Both the position numbers and the translations under genes were made by a program. Under the pieces are notes generated by a model. It saw only the letters and a program-made list of their open reading frames with translations, ran no database searches and was not told the origin of the DNA. From positions 17,150 through 55,609 of the forward strand of contig MHEK01000001.1 in NCBI GenBank assembly GCA_001803795.1: a stretch of DNA of 38,460 nucleotides, read 5' to 3'. The stretch comes from Nitrospirae bacterium RBG_16_64_22. Lineage in GTDB: Bacteria > Nitrospirota > RBG-16-64-22. Positions 629-8,091 of the stretch are shown one piece after another; position 1 is the stretch's first letter; every line of letters starts with the position of its first letter.

Positions 629-1531
629 TCATTTCGGCGAGGGACTATCGAAAGAAAAGGAGCCGATGCTCCACCAGCAGGTTTGTACGTAGGGCGTTTT
701 GTAACCAAGCATCGCCGGAATTAACCTTTGGTTCAGCCGTTGCAGATGATGAGCCGCGTAGAACGAGGAGTTGTTCCCATCGGAACACGGTTGGCCGCCG
801 TCCCAAAGCGTTTCGTGAAAAAGCCCATTTCGCAATCTCACAATCGCCTCGATGACATCGGCGTTCAATGGGATTTGGAAATGCTTACAGAGCGTCCGAA
901 TGCGCTCTTTGTGCGGGGGTTCCTTTGGAAGGGCAAGCATACGGAGATCCGTTGCCAACCTATGGCAGCCATCAAACACCTTGTAGGCATTTGCGAATTG
1001 TTCCCACTCCCATGGGTACAAGGTCGTACGTGAGTGCATGAACAGTAGATTTGTAAGAAGTCTTTGGGACTTTTCCGGCCAGCTATTCCAGGTCCGAAGG
1101 GAATGAGAAAGAAAGTCCCCCACCACGTCTCTAGTACAGCGGATACCATGAGCTGGCTTGATCGGGATGCGACCATCAACCCACCATTCCTCAAACTGAA
1201 GCCTTGTTCCGAAGAGATACGCTAAGAGGTGGATTAGGAAGGCCCCAGGGCCTCGTCGCAACGGTTCTGATGTTCCAGGGCAATCCAGAGCCAAATCGTG
1301 AGAGGGTGGAACTTGATGCAAGAGCGCCGGACGTAATGAGTGCGGAATTTCTCTGCCTGATTGGTCAGCGCTGTAGGAGGCCGGAGGGTACAGGAAGCCG
1401 TCGCGGTTCGTGTGTTCGGAAACCCATGCGGACGCCCGCTCGTAGTCCGGAACCAAAGAGATGGCCCCACCGTTGAACAGAATCGGATACGGGTATTCCA
1501 GGAATCCAAAGCAACTCGAACTACTCATCAC
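629..1531 (-). CDS. HEPN-like protein of the restriction/Fic module (putative RNase)
   Basis: A 300-residue soluble protein with no recognised full-length family. The C-terminal third is helical and ends in R234-N-G-L-F-H239. This fits the R(N/D/H)x3-5H signature of HEPN ribonucleases, and the context IVRLRNGLFHE is typical of their last helix. The N-terminal 130 residues are rich in aromatic residues and unassigned. The GTG start at 1531 has GGAG ten bases upstream; an ATG follows at 1528. The start overlaps the end of the Fic-containing frame by 11 bases, so the two are probably translationally coupled. Base composition is visibly lower in GC than the housekeeping genes, as in the target-recognition half of the restriction gene, which suggests horizontal transfer. 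HEPN proteins are common effectors or toxins in defence islands; RNase activity here is inference from one motif. Confidence 0.7.
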   Translation of the reverse strand: MMSSSSCFGFLEYPYPILFNGGAISLVPDYERASAWVSEHTNRDGFLYPPASYSADQSGREIPHSLRPALLHQVPPSHDLALDCPGTSEPLRRGPGAFLIHLLAYLFGTRLQFEEWWVDGRIPIKPAHGIRCTRDVVGDFLSHSLRTWNSWPEKSQRLLTNLLFMHSRTTLYPWEWEQFANAYKVFDGCHRLATDLRMLALPKEPPHKERIRTLCKHFQIPLNADVIEAIVRLRNGLFHETLWDGGQPCSDGNNSSFYAAHHLQRLNQRLIPAMLGYKTPYVQTCWWSIGSFSFDSPSPK

Positions 1532-2160
1532 TTTCTGATTGCTCCGGATTTCCGTGCATTCCCTCCAAGGGTAGACGTCCGGTCGCTTCGGCGATCCGGC
1601 GGGTCCAGAGTTCTAGCAGTCTTGCAGGATCCCCGAGATCGGCGGTGCGTAGGGCATCTAGGTACCCTTGACGGGTTTCGGGTAGGACTGGGACTGTTTC
1701 CAAGGGCGGGAGGCCCAGTTTGTGGAAGAGGGCAACCAGGATAACCCGGCCGATTCGGCCATTGAAATCTCGAAACGGATGAACCCACTGGAACCGCCAG
1801 TCGGCCCAGACTAGAAGCTCGGCCAGAGAGCGGATGTCCGCCTCGTCAGGCCGCACGTGCCTCAGCCTTTCGCCAAGATCATCGCAAAAGACACGGACGA
1901 GGACGGGGACCTCGTAGAATGGCGGGGGGGTGTGAGATCCGACCTGCACATTGACGTCGCGATACCGTCCGGCCCAATCCGGGAAGAGCCCGCCCGCCAG
2001 CCTCCGATGTTGTAGGCAAATCCATTCCGGAGTGATAGCAAGGGCCGCAGGGGGGGACTCGACAATTTCCCCCAGAATGCCCGCAAGCGATAAAGCCAGC
2101 CGCTCCGAGACCTCCGTGTAGGAAAGGGCACCCTCGGGCGTCTCGAAATATCGCGTTGAT
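1521..2160 (-). other. Fic domain portion of the fused frame
   Basis: These bases encode the Fic module, from about YFETPEG to the stop. It contains TPEWICLQHRRL, FPDWAGRYRDVNV and the active-site loop H1232-P-F-R-D-F-N-G-R-I-G-R1243. Against the consensus HxFx(D/E)GNGRxxR, the first Gly is Phe; the catalytic His and both Arg are kept. Fic proteins usually transfer AMP to a target protein, and related family members act as toxins when not bound by antitoxin. Between the antitoxin stop and a GTG about 70 codons into the domain I find no in-frame ATG, GTG or TTG. An independent Fic protein would therefore lack a normal start, which favours translation as part of the restriction protein. Confidence 0.8.
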
Positions 2161-5100
2161 CCTAAGGGTTCGCCGCCTTCGCCCGGGTCTTCAGGAGCGT
2201 CTTCAGGCGTTCGATACCGACCGGCTGGTTCTCGAACGCCATTGACTGCGCCACCCACTCCGGGATCTTCTTCCGGAACAGGGCCTCCCGCTCCGCCGGG
2301 TCTGCGTGAAGCTCCCGCCACCGCCTCAGCCTGGCGTTTAGTTCGGCTGTGTCTATTTCCTTGTGCGTCCTCGTCTTCATGGCCTTCATTCTCCCATGCC
2401 CGCTTTCCGGTTTCAACTCCTCCTTCGACGATCGCAATCTCCTCGTCCGTGAGTTCATAAAGCTCGTAGACCAGCCGGTCGATCTGCCGGTCGGTTGCGT
2501 CGATCTGGCGCTTGAGGCTCTCCTTCTCGTGCGGTGCCTTGGCAGTAGCGAGCCGCCTATGAAGCGCGAGCATGCTTTTGACCGGCGAGACCATCTTGTC
2601 GTGGTGGGCGGGGTCGGCGTTACATATCGGCAGGCTGCGGATAAAACGTGCCTCGAAGCTAAACCATCCACCGCGAAACGGGGTTGCGGTTTGCTTTATG
2701 ATCCAGTCCAGCAACTTGCTGTTCAGCAAACCCAAGACATACTCCCGCGAGTAGTCCGGTTTGACCAGGATTCCATAGCCACCAGCTACGCCGCCGGTGA
2801 AAAACACCTCTCCGGTTTCGTCCAGGGAAAAAGCCGCGCGCGGGGCGATGTCGGGCGTGAATATCTTGGGAAGCGGCATGACATCAAGCGCCTTTGGATA
2901 TACATACCCATACCATCGCAGCCCGCGCATCTTGCCGTGCTCGCGCTCCTCAAGGTATGTCCGGTTGGCCTTTAAGTAGTCCCACGTGAGCGGATAGCGG
3001 GATTTGAAGGCATCCTCGGGAATCAACCGCGTCTCGCCGTCGGCCTGCTTGGCGTAGGGAAAGAGGATCAGGCGGTCGGTGCGCGATAGATTATATGGCT
3101 TGCTGTCGCCCCCTTTTATCAAGGGATGAAGCAAATCGGGCTCTAACCAATATTCAGCGCCCTTCTCGGGCGAGTAGATTCGGACGCGATCTTTCTTGCG
3201 TTCCCTTTCCTCGACTATGTAAATCTTGTCGGCGCTGGTTTTGACGCCCTGGAAAATCCTGTCCGTGACATCTTCCAGTTTCGGCGCGATGCGACCGAGT
3301 TTTTCAAGAAGTGCGCCGCCCTTCCCGGCGGAAAACGCCCACTCGGCGGAGCTCGCGTGCTCGGCTGGCAACTCGCCTTCCTCGGCGCTGCCCGTTCTGC
3401 GCCATTGGTCAAGATCGCCCACCTTCACAAACCGGACGGTGTCTCGGCCGGCACGGTCGAGAAACATCAAGCAGGTGTAGGTGGATGCTCCGGCGAAAAC
3501 CTGTTGGTGGCCGAAATGCACGATTTCCGTGAGGTGCTTGCCTTTAGCTATCAGCTCCCGCAGCGGTTCGCCATATTGAGCATTGAAGAATTTATGCGGC
3601 AGGATGAAGCCGAGGCGGCCGGTCTGGTTGAGGAGGCTCAGCGCTTTTTCGACGAAGACAACGTATATGTCGTAGTTCCCTTTGGACGCCGACCTGTAGA
3701 TCGTCTTGTAGGCGTCCACTTCGAGCGGTGCCCACTCCGTGAGTGTCTGGACGCGGATGTACGGGGGATTCCCGATCACGGCGTCGAAGCCGCCGTTCCC
3801 CTCACCCTTCCCTCTCCCGGCGGGAGAGGAGAAAACGTGCGGAAACTCCCCTTTCCAGTCGAAGGGGTTGATCCGGCGCATGGCGTCCTGATCCGGCAGT
3901 AGCTGGCCCGCGAAGTAGTCCGGGCCGATGAGTGAGTTGCCGCACTTGATGTTGTTCCCGAGGTCCGGGAGGGCGCGCTCCCGCCACATCTTGAGCTGGC
4001 GGGTGAGCGTATCCCCATTCTCCCCCTCCAGGACCTTGAGCAGGAGGGAGAGCTTCGTCACCTCCACGGCCTGGCTGTCGATGTCCACGCCGTAGATGTT
4101 GTTGAGGAGGATGCGCTTCTTCTCCTGCGTGGTGAGGTGCCACCGGCCGCCCGCGCCCTGGTAGACCGCGTTCGTGTGCTTGAGCGGCCCATCGCTCAGG
4201 TACCAGTCTCTGTGGTGGTTGAGGAGGGACTCATAGGCGCCGATGAGGAAGGAGCCGGAGCCGCAGGCGGGATCGAGGATTCGGAGCCTGGCGATTTGCT
4301 TCGGGGTCTTTCCCTCGCGGAGCTTGCCAACGGTGTTCTTGACGATGTAGTCGACGATATAGGCCGGGGTGTAGTAGACGCCGCCCGCCTTCTTGACCTC
4401 CGGCTTCTCTTCGACCACCGCCCGGTGGCCGGCGGTCAGGCGAATCACTTTACCAAGGAACTGCTCGTAGACCTGGCCCAGGATCTCGGCAGGGAAGACG
4501 GAGAACTCGTAAGGGCTCTCCGGGTAGTAGAGGCGGCCGATGATGTCCTTGAGGACCTTGTCGTCGATGACGAGCGCGGGCGTCAGATCGTCCGGCGCCT
4601 CGGCTCTTTCCTTTTCCGGCTTGAAATGGAACAGCCCGGAGTTGTAGCGGTCGTCGGCCAGGCCGTAGACGTATTGGAGTCTGCGATAGACGTTCTCGCC
4701 GTTGAGGAGGCCCTGGATCTGGCCGTACGTTTCGACGCCCCGGTCCTCGCAGATGCGGAGAAAGATCAGCCGGTCGATGGTTCTCTGGACGGCGAAGTTG
4801 ACGTCCTGGACCGTGAGCTTCGGGTTCCGGAGAGCCACGTTGCGGGCCAGGGTCTCTCGCCACCCTTCGATCTCGGCCAGGAACTCGGCGTCCACGGTTG
4901 CGGTGCCGCGCTTCCGCTCGGAGACGGCGAAACGGTCGAAGGACCCCCTGAGAACGGCCTCCTTGGAGAAAATGGAGGCGATCTCGTCCCAACGGGCGAG
5001 GTATTCCCTGTGCGTGAGGTAAAGGATGCGGCCCTTGCCCGGTTTGTCGGTGCGATTCGGCCGCGTGCGGCAGTCGTAGACCGCGAATTCTTCGAAATCC

Positions 5101-5474
5101 GTCAGGATCGAGAGTGGAAGCTTGGCGGACCAGGCATAGCGGCGGACCTGGTAGGCGAGATCGGGGGCGTCCTTGATGTTGACGGCGGGCTTCTTGGCTT
5201 CCAGGAAGAACTTCCGGACGCCGCCGATGCGGAAGCAGTAGTCCGGGGCCTTGGTCGCGCCGGAGACGCTGATCGCGTCCTCGTGGACCACGTCCTTGTA
5301 CGCCTCGGCGTGGCCCGCCTTGTTCATGACGTCCCATCCCAGCGCGTCGAAGAAGGGGTCGATGAACTCCCGGCGGAGCTGAGTCTCGTTGTAGCCCGGG
5401 CCGCGGTAGGAGTCGAGGTTTCGCTCGAACCGCGTGGTGAGGTCAAGGATGATTGCCGGAGGAGTCAGGGGCAT
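1521..5474 (-). CDS. Type IIG restriction-modification enzyme with in-frame C-terminal Fic domain
   Basis: A 1317-residue frame. Residues 1-200 hold a PD-(D/E)xK nuclease (P77-D78, then E92-A-K94 in FFLEAKK). Helical linker to about 360. An N6-adenine methyltransferase follows, with motif I DPACGSGSF at 401-409 and motif IV GNPPY at 568-572. Residues about 700-1000 form an Eco57I/TaqI-C-like target-recognition region (LLNSKLLDWIIKQ, GGWFSFEARFI). The restriction part looks complete at about residue 1015 (YELTDEEIAIVEG). Residues about 1020-1105 are low-complexity Gly/Pro/Arg and overlie an antitoxin gene in another frame. Residues 1106-1317 are a Fic domain with HPFRDFNGRIGR at 1232-1243. One protein should cut and methylate DNA; whether Fic is truly fused or the frame was joined by mutation or an assembly indel is open. 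Own promoter at 5506-5534. The ATG at 5474 has a weak ribosome site. Confidence 0.88.
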   Translation of the reverse strand: MPLTPPAIILDLTTRFERNLDSYRGPGYNETQLRREFIDPFFDALGWDVMNKAGHAEAYKDVVHEDAISVSGATKAPDYCFRIGGVRKFFLEAKKPAVNIKDAPDLAYQVRRYAWSAKLPLSILTDFEEFAVYDCRTRPNRTDKPGKGRILYLTHREYLARWDEIASIFSKEAVLRGSFDRFAVSERKRGTATVDAEFLAEIEGWRETLARNVALRNPKLTVQDVNFAVQRTIDRLIFLRICEDRGVETYGQIQGLLNGENVYRRLQYVYGLADDRYNSGLFHFKPEKERAEAPDDLTPALVIDDKVLKDIIGRLYYPESPYEFSVFPAEILGQVYEQFLGKVIRLTAGHRAVVEEKPEVKKAGGVYYTPAYIVDYIVKNTVGKLREGKTPKQIARLRILDPACGSGSFLIGAYESLLNHHRDWYLSDGPLKHTNAVYQGAGGRWHLTTQEKKRILLNNIYGVDIDSQAVEVTKLSLLLKVLEGENGDTLTRQLKMWRERALPDLGNNIKCGNSLIGPDYFAGQLLPDQDAMRRINPFDWKGEFPHVFSSPAGRGKGEGNGGFDAVIGNPPYIRVQTLTEWAPLEVDAYKTIYRSASKGNYDIYVVFVEKALSLLNQTGRLGFILPHKFFNAQYGEPLRELIAKGKHLTEIVHFGHQQVFAGASTYTCLMFLDRAGRDTVRFVKVGDLDQWRRTGSAEEGELPAEHASSAEWAFSAGKGGALLEKLGRIAPKLEDVTDRIFQGVKTSADKIYIVEERERKKDRVRIYSPEKGAEYWLEPDLLHPLIKGGDSKPYNLSRTDRLILFPYAKQADGETRLIPEDAFKSRYPLTWDYLKANRTYLEEREHGKMRGLRWYGYVYPKALDVMPLPKIFTPDIAPRAAFSLDETGEVFFTGGVAGGYGILVKPDYSREYVLGLLNSKLLDWIIKQTATPFRGGWFSFEARFIRSLPICNADPAHHDKMVSPVKSMLALHRRLATAKAPHEKESLKRQIDATDRQIDRLVYELYELTDEEIAIVEGGVETGKRAWENEGHEDEDAQGNRHSRTKRQAEAVAGASRRPGGAGGPVPEEDPGVGGAVNGVREPAGRYRTPEDAPEDPGEGGEPLGSTRYFETPEGALSYTEVSERLALSLAGILGEIVESPPAALAITPEWICLQHRRLAGGLFPDWAGRYRDVNVQVGSHTPPPFYEVPVLVRVFCDDLGERLRHVRPDEADIRSLAELLVWADWRFQWVHPFRDFNGRIGRVILVALFHKLGLPPLETVPVLPETRQGYLDALRTADLGDPARLLELWTRRIAEATGRLPLEGMHGNPEQSESDE
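2162..2380 (-). CDS. VbhA/FicA-like antitoxin, overprinted inside the R-M/Fic frame
   Basis: A 72-residue frame lying wholly inside the long restriction/Fic frame but shifted by one base. Its codons show strong G/C bias at the third position, as true genes here do, whereas the host frame over the same bases gives Gly/Pro/Arg-rich nonsense. It carries S46-M-A-F-E50-N51, matching the (S/T)xxxE(G/N) motif with which class I Fic antitoxins block ATP binding in their partner; in the family the Glu pairs with the second Arg of the Fic motif. Two ATGs are possible: 2389, with GGGAG almost touching it, and 2380, with GGGAG ten bases away; I chose 2380. The TAG lies immediately before the conserved start of the Fic domain, the usual antitoxin-then-toxin order. 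The rest of the sequence is charged and helical. Identification rests on motif, size and position. Confidence 0.72.
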   Translation of the reverse strand: MKTRTHKEIDTAELNARLRRWRELHADPAEREALFRKKIPEWVAQSMAFENQPVGIERLKTLLKTRAKAANP

Positions 5475-5505: not shown

Positions 5506-5534
5506 AGTCTATGGAACGGTCAGGCGGGTGTCAA
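5506..5534 (-). promoter_or_regulatory. Promoter of the R-M/antitoxin/Fic/HEPN unit
   Basis: On the minus strand TTGACA (5534-5529) is followed after 17 bases by TAGACT (5511-5506). The -35 is perfect and the -10 matches 4 of 6. It lies about 30 bases upstream of the restriction gene ATG, so the module can be transcribed independently of tatC. No operator repeat for a controller protein is obvious. Confidence 0.6.
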
Positions 5535-5583: not shown

Positions 5584-6369
5584 CTACGCCTCGGCGGGTT
5601 TCTTTCGGCCGAAGAGGCGGGCGGAGAGGATGCCGACCTCGTAGAGGAGGAGGAGCGGGCCGGCCATGAGGACCTGGTTGAAGACGTCGGGCGTGGGCGT
5701 GAGGATCGCGGCGACGATGAAGGCGAGGAGGACGGCGTACTTCCTGTTCCGCGCGAGGAAGGCCGGCGTCGTGATGCCCATCCGGGCCATGAGCGTGATG
5801 GCGAGCGGGAGCTCGAAGATCAGACCGAAGGCCAGGAGGAACTTGACGCAGAAATCGACGTACTCCCCGACGGTCAGGATCGGCTTCAGGTTCTCGTCGA
5901 ACGAGACAAGGAAGTTGAGGGCGAAGGGAAGGACGACCTTGTAACAGAAGGCGAGGCCGAGAGCGAAAAACAGGGTCGAAAGGGCGACGAAGGGGAGGGC
6001 ATAGCGCCGCTCGCCGGGAAGAAGGCCGGGGGCGACGAACCGCCAGACTTCGAAGAGAATGACCGGGATCGACAGGAAGAGCGCGGCGAAGAAGGCCAGC
6101 TTCAGGTGCGTCCAGAACGGCTCGGTGGGCGTGTGGAAGTAGAGCGTGAGCGGCTCCGGACGCATCTTCACATGGACGTACGGCGGAACGCGCTCGAAGA
6201 CGTACGTCGTGTTGAGCGGCGCCTGGACCAACTGGAGGATGGAGTGCGACTGGTTAAAGGTGACGGCCAGGGCAATCCCGACGGCGACGATCGAGACGAG
6301 AAGGCGCTTCCTCAGCTCTTCGAGATGAGCGGTGAGCGGCATCCGCTCGCTGTTTTCTTCCTCAACCAC
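5584..6369 (-). CDS. tatC: Sec-independent protein translocase TatC
   Basis: TatC is the multi-spanning receptor of the twin-arginine pathway, which exports folded proteins across the inner membrane. The conserved N-terminus [14 protein letters not shown] is present, followed by six hydrophobic segments and the loop [17 protein letters not shown]. The frame is open further upstream to 6423, but that would overlap tatA by 62 bases. I chose the GTG at 6369, which has GGAGG eight bases upstream and overlaps the tatA stop by 8 bases; a later ATG at 6342 is also possible. Length (261 residues) is normal. The first periplasmic loop is somewhat long ([24 protein letters not shown]). It forms a tatAC pair with the upstream gene. 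It ends about 50 bases before the promoter of the restriction module, with no clear terminator between. Confidence 0.95.
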
Positions 6370-6739
6370 CTTGCGGACCTCCAGCCGGCCGATCCTTCTC
6401 TTCTTTTTCTCCCGGCTCTCCAAGCTCTCCCGGGGCGGGCTCTCCGGCTTTCGTCTCCTTCTCGACGGGCGATTCCACGACCGACGTGATTTCCCGGGCG
6501 GTGTCCTGCGCGGTTTTCTTCGTTTCCTCCAGATATTTCTCGATGTCGGCCTTCTCCTCTTCGAGGCGAATCTGCTTGATCTCCTCGTCGATCGTCTCCT
6601 TGACCTCCTGCGTGGCCCGCTTGAACTCCGCGAACCCCTTACCGACGGCCCGGGCGAGGTCCGGGAGCTTCTTGGGGCCGAAGACCAGAAGGGCGATGAC
6701 GAAGATGATGATCAGTTCGGGGACGCCGATTCCAAACAC
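6362..6739 (-). CDS. tatA: Twin-arginine translocase subunit TatA/TatB
   Basis: A 125-residue Tat pore or accessory subunit. The first 20 residues form the single membrane helix ([17 protein letters not shown]), followed by the hinge [16 protein letters not shown] and an amphipathic helix, then a long Glu/Lys-rich tail. The motif set fits TatA better than TatB, but the tail is long, so in this organism one protein may serve both roles; no second tatA/B gene is visible here. The ATG at 6739 has GGAG seven bases upstream. It is the first gene of the tatA-tatC pair and is separated from the upstream ompA-like gene by a strong terminator. Confidence 0.92.
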
Positions 6740-6760
6740 AGAGATTCTCCGGAACTAAAC

Positions 6761-6790
6761 AGGCACCCCCGGGTTCTTCCGGGGGTGCCT
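6761..6790 (-). terminator. Rho-independent terminator of the ompA-like gene
   Basis: A perfect 12-base inverted repeat (AGGCACCCCCGG and CCGGGGGTGCCT) with a six-base loop starts 33 bases past the ompA-like stop. On the minus strand it is followed by TGTTTAGTT, a weak T tract. It separates ompA from tatA. Confidence 0.8.
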
Positions 6791-6822
6791 GATGAGAAAG
6801 CGAGCCGCGCGGAGGCTTGCGG

Positions 6823-8091
6823 CTAGCGGGTTTTTACCGTGAAGTGCGCCCGGCGGTTTTTGGCTCGGTTTGCCTCCACGTCGTTGGGATAGGCCGGCTT
6901 CTCTTCGCCGTAGGAGATTGTGGAGAGCCGGTCGGCGGGGATGCCCAGGAGGACGAGATAGTTGTACGCGCTCCGGGCCCGGCGGTCTCCCAGGGCGAGG
7001 TTGTATTCCGTCGTTCCGATGTCGCACGTGTGGCCTTCGACGACGACCGCTGCGCCTGGATTCTTCTTGAGCTCTTCGGCGGCCCGGTCGAGGATCTTCT
7101 TCCCCTCGGGACGAAGCGTGGCGCGGTCGAAGTCGAAGTGGACGTCCTCCAGGGCCGCCACGAGGCTCGCGGGGACGGCGGCGGGGGCGGCCGGTGCCGC
7201 GGCTGCGGGCGCGGCAGGTGCGGCCGGCGCCCCGGCCGGCGCGGCTTCGGCTTTCTTGACGCCGAACAGGAAGGCGACGCCCGCCGTCAGGCCCCAATCA
7301 GGGGAACTGCTCGAGAACGCCCGGCTCGCGCCGAAGTGAGCCACGAGGGTATCCGTCACGTACCGAAGGCCCGCCCGCCCCTCGAGTTGTCTCGATGCGG
7401 CATGGTCCGGGTTGCGGTCGGAATTCCCCGCGACTTCCGCCAAACCCTGGAGCTTCTTTCCGGCGGGGAAGGCAAGGCCGACGCCGTACGTCACCTCGTT
7501 GTCCCTCTTGAACTCGGAAGGTTCGCCGACGACGGTGTAGCCGACGTTCACGTTCGTCTCGACGGTCCCCAGCGTCTTTGTGAGAAGGAACTTCGCGCCG
7601 TAGTCGGCCTTCTTGGTCCCGATCCCCTTGTCCTTGCTGGCCGTGGGCGCGGCGACGAACCCGAGGATCCCAAGCCCCGGCTTTCCGGCGGCCTCGTCGA
7701 GGAAGCGGTAGCGGACGCCGACGGTGATGTCGTCGAGTCCCGCCTTGTTCGTCTTCGACTTGTCGGCTTCCCAGAAGGTGAACGGGAGATTTGCCTCGAT
7801 CTGGAGGTTGTTTCTGATGCCGTAGGCCAGGGGGACGTAGAACGTGTTCTGGTCCAGGTCGTCCCCGCCGGCTTCCGTGATCGCTTCGATTCCGTACCAG
7901 CCCAGGCCGACGCCGAACGCCCCCTGGGGAAGAGTCCGGGTCCCGATGACCGTGAAGATGCCGGTGTCGCCCACCGGCTTATGCCCCCACGCCTCGGCCT
8001 GAGGCGCGGCCGCCTGGGCGGTGACCGGCATCAGGAAGAAAACGGCGATCATCGCGGCAAAGACTCCGGCCAACCAGGGTCGAGCGTTCAT
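6823..8091 (-). CDS. OmpA-family outer-membrane beta-barrel protein
   Basis: A 422-residue envelope protein. Residues 1-28 are a signal peptide ending AQA-AAPQ. Residues about 30-280 show alternating aromatic/polar strands and Gly-rich turns typical of an outer-membrane barrel (LGWYGIEAI, ADYGAKFLLTKTLG). Residues about 285-315 form an Ala/Pro linker. The C-terminal domain (about 320-422) is the peptidoglycan-binding OmpA/Pal fold, with VHFDFDRATLRPEGKKIL, VEGHTCDIGTTEYNLALGDRRA and NRRAHF. It probably tethers the outer membrane to the wall. The start at 8091 has AGGAGG five bases upstream. It is transcribed alone from a promoter 120-150 bases upstream and ends at a strong terminator. The GHTCDIGTTEYN segment resembles the Pal version (GHTDxxGTxEYN). 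Confidence 0.9.
   Translation of the reverse strand: MNARPWLAGVFAAMIAVFFLMPVTAQAAAPQAEAWGHKPVGDTGIFTVIGTRTLPQGAFGVGLGWYGIEAITEAGGDDLDQNTFYVPLAYGIRNNLQIEANLPFTFWEADKSKTNKAGLDDITVGVRYRFLDEAAGKPGLGILGFVAAPTASKDKGIGTKKADYGAKFLLTKTLGTVETNVNVGYTVVGEPSEFKRDNEVTYGVGLAFPAGKKLQGLAEVAGNSDRNPDHAASRQLEGRAGLRYVTDTLVAHFGASRAFSSSSPDWGLTAGVAFLFGVKKAEAAPAGAPAAPAAPAAAAPAAPAAVPASLVAALEDVHFDFDRATLRPEGKKILDRAAEELKKNPGAAVVVEGHTCDIGTTEYNLALGDRRARSAYNYLVLLGIPADRLSTISYGEEKPAYPNDVEANRAKNRRAHFTVKTR

Follow-up and report, generated by a model that had tools for sequence, protein, structure and literature searches.

A type IIG restriction-modification enzyme fused to a Fic domain, with a candidate antitoxin gene nested out of frame in the linker

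Class I Fic toxins are encoded together with small antitoxins, as in the pairs VbhA-VbhT, EcFicA-EcFicT and Campylobacter fti-fic, and both the (S/T)xxxE(G/N) motif and class I Fic inhibition are established (PMC3667792). The two genes of known Fic pairs overlap by 8 and 15 bp (PMC5651007). The locus described here was found in a window of 38,460 nucleotides, meaning the whole stretch of DNA analysed, from Nitrospirae bacterium RBG_16_64_22 (contig MHEK01000001.1, positions 17,150 to 55,609), whose genome is a Nitrospirota metagenome-assembled genome of 2.4 Mb in 118 contigs. It encodes a type IIG restriction-modification (RM) enzyme and a Fic domain in one reading frame, and a putative antitoxin in another. 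Window coordinates are given on the forward strand and all features named are on the minus strand. Like the class I pairs, the locus combines a Fic fold with a small protein that starts upstream and bears an (S/T)xxxE(G/N)-type motif. In those pairs toxin and antitoxin are adjacent genes with short overlaps, whereas here the antitoxin lies out of frame inside the toxin open reading frame (ORF) and a restriction enzyme forms one polypeptide with the toxin.

Three other described systems share part of this layout. In the Rpn systems a long gene encodes an anti-phage toxin and translation also begins inside it, giving the antitoxin (PMC10327210), but that antitoxin, RpnS, corresponds to the C-terminal domain of full-length Rpn and is read in the same frame, whereas the two proteins here are read in different frames and have no residues in common. 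PrrC in EcoprrI, the standard RM guardian, and similar guardians are toxic effectors genetically tied to an RM system (PMC12707154). The PrrC effector, an anticodon nuclease, is a protein of its own that a type I complex holds, while here the Fic domain is part of the type IIG polypeptide and is paired with a dedicated antitoxin. Eco57I-family type IIG enzymes (PDLC03604) likewise carry nuclease, methylase and specificity domains on one chain, to which the present protein adds a C-terminal linker and Fic domain; the plain relatives are about 950-1050 aa. No paper on an RM-Fic fusion or on an out-of-frame nested antitoxin was found in the open-licence literature by literal term matching.

The RM-Fic ORF (1521..5474) encodes 1317 aa in one uninterrupted frame, with the type IIG enzyme at residues 1 to about 1032, a linker at about 1032-1105 and the Fic domain at 1106-1317. 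There is no stop codon between the RM and Fic parts and no start codon near the Fic domain. The type IIG part (2339..5474) matched Eco57I in Pfam (E 4e-48) and the PADLOC type IIG model PDLC03604 over residues 11-1015 (E 4e-263). It contains a PD-(x13)-EAK nuclease motif of the PD-ExK type (5193-5246), the N6-adenine methyltransferase motifs DPACGSGSF (4248-4274) and NPPY (3759-3770), and a TaqI_C-like specificity domain. A predicted nuclease, an N6-adenine methylase and a specificity domain are thus combined on a single chain, as expected of a type IIG enzyme.

The Fic domain (1524..2159) carries the motif HPFRDFNGRIGR (1746-1781) and matched Fic in Pfam with an E value of 1e-10. An AlphaFold model built from a 22-sequence alignment gave a confident Fic fold, with a predicted local distance difference test (pLDDT) score mostly above 90 over the domain and a disordered linker, and the Foldseek structural neighbours of the model included FICD, EcFicT and VbhT. 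The Fic domain proposed in the first-pass annotation of this DNA was thereby upheld at high confidence. Across the 22 aligned members the family motif is HP(F/Y)xDFNGRxxR, in which the His, Asp, Asn-Gly-Arg and last Arg are invariant.

The candidate antitoxin, a FicA/VbhA-like protein of 72 aa (2162..2380), is read in the +1 frame relative to the RM-Fic ORF and lies inside the linker, unlike a class I antitoxin encoded by a separate upstream gene. Its putative inhibitory motif SMAFEN (2228-2245) fits (S/T)xxxE(G/N); among relatives S-x3-E is kept and the last position is variable. No family match to the 72-residue protein was found in Pfam, NCBIfam or PADLOC. The stretch 2162..2381 accordingly codes for the RM-Fic linker in frame 0 and the antitoxin in frame +1, as indicated by stop codons, start codons, fourfold degenerate sites and the predicted disorder. 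All the sequence features listed in the first-pass annotation (PD-ExK, DPACGSGSF, NPPY, the Fic motif, the S-x3-E-N frame and RNGLFH) were found on the minus strand. The same annotation described one overlapping unit; the parts do lie on one strand, but RM and Fic are read without interruption in a single frame and the antitoxin is nested within it in a second frame, so that this is not a row of overlapping genes. Neither the dual coding nor the absence of a start codon for Fic alone had been noticed in that annotation.

Among 296 Nitrospirota genomes, a Fic match was found in 67 and the close family in about 29. A wider scan, covering 84,980 species genomes, recovered 80 loci, which span Nitrospirota, Planctomycetota, Nitrospinota, Deltaproteobacteria, Methylomirabilota, beta- and gammaproteobacteria, Verrucomicrobiota and one actinobacterium. 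A total of 92 distinct loci were placed on a tree: 27 RM-fused, one fused to another domain (L106, counted with the RM-fused loci where 28 fused loci are given below), 39 solo nested, 22 with separate genes and three with antitoxin and Fic in the same frame, a split that is approximate, as L044 was scored solo yet is RM-fused by ORF length and type IIG match, and L040 is uncertain. Frame mapping showed that every RM enzyme that runs on into Fic does so without a change of frame, with the antitoxin read in the +1 frame, except at L065, which has an apparent frameshift. The RM parts of the fused loci belong to several Eco57I-type subfamilies, and the Fic-carrying relatives of the window enzyme have open frames of 1217-1332 aa. 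The nested or separate state changed at least three times on the tree and RM linkage about 14 times, giving a patchy distribution. An assembly artefact or frameshift in the window was rejected, as the same frame relation recurs in many species. The first-pass annotation would have been refuted if homologous restriction genes never occurred beside the other genes or if no Fic fold were predicted; for restriction enzyme, Fic and antitoxin neither held, their association being real and conserved, and we are highly confident of the architecture itself, an RM-Fic fused frame with a nested out-of-frame antitoxin.

A few loci depart from these layouts. At L106 (6263-7579) an AlbA_2/Schlafen domain takes the place of the restriction enzyme, and the nested Fic module follows it as an in-frame fusion. 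At L143 (6839-7591) antitoxin and Fic share one frame in a single, class II Fic-like protein, which may be a natural fusion or a sequence slip. The relatives L065/L126 and L059/L107 show a frame slip between antitoxin and Fic or within Fic and look like decaying copies.

Dual coding was examined across these loci. In the nested loci the Fic frame had 0 stops over 4544 antitoxin codons, compared with 313 in the third frame, and in the separate-gene loci the same frame had 74 stops in 1537 antitoxin codons. The stop count alone is partly circular because the nested and separate classes were defined by those stops; the third frame, codon resampling, start codons and fourfold sites are independent of the class definition. 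Resampling by local codon usage gave about 2-6 expected stops per locus, genomes near 40% GC included, with P mostly below 0.05 each for loci that are related and not independent. Permutation of codons within genes was weak by itself (P of about 0.01-0.65 per locus), because stop-making codons are already depleted there. All 22 separate loci have an ATG or GTG 7-10 codons ahead of the Fic domain, whereas 65 of the 67 nested loci have no start codon in the last 22 codons before it (the exceptions being L121 and L128). Fourfold divergence was lower in the antitoxin than in Fic in 32 of 33 disjoint nested pairs (pooled 0.26 vs 0.49; sign test p = 8e-9), compared with 6 of 10 disjoint separate-gene pairs (0.31 vs 0.34; p = 0.75). 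Stop avoidance, the absent Fic start and low fourfold divergence, with the opposite pattern in separate-gene loci, together show that the antitoxin DNA encodes two proteins. A chance open frame caused by high GC content was ruled out by the low-GC loci, the third-frame and separate-gene controls and the fourfold sites.

The start codons bear on how the two proteins are made. In the fused loci ribosomes must pass from RM into Fic because no stop intervenes, and a Shine-Dalgarno-like core lies ahead of the antitoxin ATG in 22 of the 28 fused loci, compared with 9% at random positions. In the solo loci a Fic-frame ATG lies upstream of the antitoxin ATG in 34 of 39, only 7 nt apart in many Verrucomicrobia. 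Alternatively, Fic might be separately initiated inside the antitoxin gene, with the open frame a side effect of composition, and indeed an NTG codon is present at about codon -54 in nearly all loci (GTG at 2321 in the window). However, this codon stems from a conserved Trp of the antitoxin, is equally frequent in separate-gene loci, is sometimes CTG and has a Shine-Dalgarno core ahead of it in only 1 of 28 fused loci. A start there would also leave the stop avoidance upstream of it and the reduced fourfold divergence unexplained, and we consider separate initiation highly improbable.

On the preferred interpretation, main-frame ribosomes would make one RM-linker-Fic polypeptide, a type IIG enzyme with a C-terminal Fic toxin domain, while ribosomes initiating at the internal ATG would make the 72-residue class I antitoxin from the linker DNA in the +1 frame. 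By analogy with VbhA on VbhT, the antitoxin probably binds the Fic domain with the SMAFEN glutamate occupying the nucleotide site, so that Fic is inactive in the healthy cell; the homology argument starts from the described block of the Fic active site by the antitoxin (PMC3667792, PMC5033356), and neutralisation of Fic by the nested protein is on this ground likely. Antitoxin shortage, or phage disturbance of the enzyme, would then free Fic to modify cell proteins, leading to arrest or abortive infection. The sequences show the fused frame, its conservation and the dual coding, whereas the toxicity, target, trigger and anti-phage effect are inferred; abortive infection triggered by failed restriction, as the first-pass annotation had suggested, is plausible. 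With the nested layout, a transcript holding the whole Fic frame always includes the antitoxin, and a frameshift or nonsense mutation that inactivates the RM part would in most cases eliminate Fic as well, so the arrangement would be safe against expression of the toxin without its antitoxin. Overall, an RM enzyme with a Fic toxin domain that is restrained by a nested antitoxin and arrests the cell on release seems to us a moderately probable explanation; a defence or guard role of the locus, taken separately, has somewhat short of an even chance.

Several observations weigh against this explanation. Phe occupies the position of the canonical Gly in the Fic motif HxFx(D/E)GN(G/K)RxxR in all 22 aligned members, so the nucleotide used may differ and AMPylation is not to be assumed. 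The antitoxin had no significant sequence match to VbhA or to any solved structure. The window Fic domain matched the models of PDC-S04, a PADLOC candidate of the broad Fic family; that candidate, unlike the present locus, consists of a single gene and has no mechanism stated for it, and one tested member gave no defence (PMC12409345). The fixed fusion does not by itself explain release of the toxin upon RM failure, and the RM link is not obligatory, because many RM-free solo copies exist.

The solo copies also bear on whether Fic acts as a killer at all. Fic might instead be a regulator whose substrate is the attached restriction enzyme, or partners bound to DNA, and which thereby adjusts nuclease or methylase activity, with the nested protein as a switch; a flexible linker is predicted to join Fic covalently to the enzyme, and a motif that is non-canonical at one position could fit a special substrate. 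The same module is found with no attached RM protein, in the 39 solo loci, in the AlbA_2/Schlafen fusion and in CRISPR operons, from which it follows that the RM enzyme is not needed as substrate, and we regard a purely regulatory Fic as unlikely.

The neighbourhoods of the nested toxin-antitoxin module were checked for about 20 chosen neighbours, with no enrichment claimed. Solo nested modules of Verrucomicrobiota adjoin CRISPR-Cas genes, with Cas5 upstream and Cas1 downstream at L132, Cas7 at L141, Cas3 at L127 and Cas1 at L130. Other solo modules adjoin HsdR or HsdM genes of type I restriction or a SIR2-STAND gene, and some have unremarkable neighbours, such as ribosomal S1 at L055. CreTA is a small-RNA system, whereas the nested Fic module uses proteins. 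The solo Fic versions inside CRISPR-Cas operons otherwise recall CreTA, a toxin-antitoxin module guarding CRISPR-Cas (PMC12737573). The position of solo modules in CRISPR-Cas operons or beside type I restriction genes suggests a guard or addiction module. In a selfish version of the latter, the Fic-antitoxin pair would serve chiefly to prevent loss of the RM or CRISPR locus to which it is linked, an effect known from other toxin-antitoxin pairs, and would not sense phages; this would fit the RM fusions, the type I RM neighbours, the CRISPR operons and the patchy distribution with its many changes of RM linkage. Classic addiction modules, however, are unlike this family, for which the plasmid collections searched gave only one weak match and the phage and viral-contig collections no relatives, and selfish addiction appears rather improbable.

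The first-pass annotation had included in the unit a fourth gene, which encodes a HEPN-like protein of 299-300 aa (629..1528, or 1531) with RNGLFH at 815-832 and overlaps the Fic stop by 8 nt if its start is the ATG at 1528. The Rx4H motif was invariant in five of five HEPN-like sequences, in line with the Rx4-6H pattern of HEPN RNases. No match to the 300-residue protein was found in Pfam, NCBIfam, PADLOC or the PDB, and its AlphaFold model from a two-sequence alignment had a pLDDT of 34. If the HEPN-like RNase were an obligate second effector of a four-part system, its adjacency and overlap in the window, its adjacency in a second genome (G292, L069/L153) and the invariant motif would be expected. 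However, the gene was found in only 5 of the 296 Nitrospirota genomes and beside RM-Fic in only these two, out of about 29 Nitrospirota genomes having the close Fic family. Elsewhere it follows a plain type IIG gene with one gene between (G135) or overlaps large helicase-like genes (G035 and G253; SNF2 confirmed in G035). Its membership in the unit was thus not regular and a four-part system is very unlikely; the gene is best seen as an independent defence-associated gene that is an occasional, optional neighbour of RM-Fic. Among its other surroundings, a 356-aa protein between a plain type IIG gene and a HEPN-like relative (L151, 4811-5881) is possibly another effector. At L152 (7101-10923) a HEPN-like relative overlaps a 1028-aa helicase-like gene and the downstream genes begin sacsin/HATPase-like, a possible separate defence cluster.

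The remaining features of the window concern the surroundings of the RM-Fic gene. One promoter-like site (TTGACA-17-TAGACT, 5506..5534) lies just upstream of its start; the first-pass annotation had placed the unit under one promoter. Chance alone would account for a site of this kind here. Further upstream, TatC, TatA/B and an OmpA-family protein (5584-8091) are ordinary housekeeping genes. A short palindrome, CCCTCACCC..CTCTCCCGGCGGGAGAGG, lies within the RM coding sequence (3799-3833); similar stretches of 29-32 nt occur elsewhere in the genome, and it looks like a dispersed palindromic repeat present as an in-frame insertion. No RNA element was found in an Rfam search.

We tentatively propose, at rather less than even odds, a portable Fic cassette with its antitoxin out of frame inside the toxin gene, which joins in frame to the C-termini of type IIG enzymes and other proteins, is also inserted in CRISPR-Cas operons, and acts as a general guard that arrests the cell when host defence is disabled. 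If the dual coding and the roles assigned to the two proteins are true, this would be a toxin-antitoxin architecture of which no description was found, with toxin and antitoxin on the same DNA in different frames, so that most changes in the overlap would hit both. In synthetic biology, overlapping genes are engineered to safeguard costly genes (PMC8528312), and this would be a case of such overlap in nature; antitoxins of this kind would be missed by standard annotation. Dual coding leads to clean, testable predictions, and some type IIG restriction enzymes would have a built-in protein-modifying domain.

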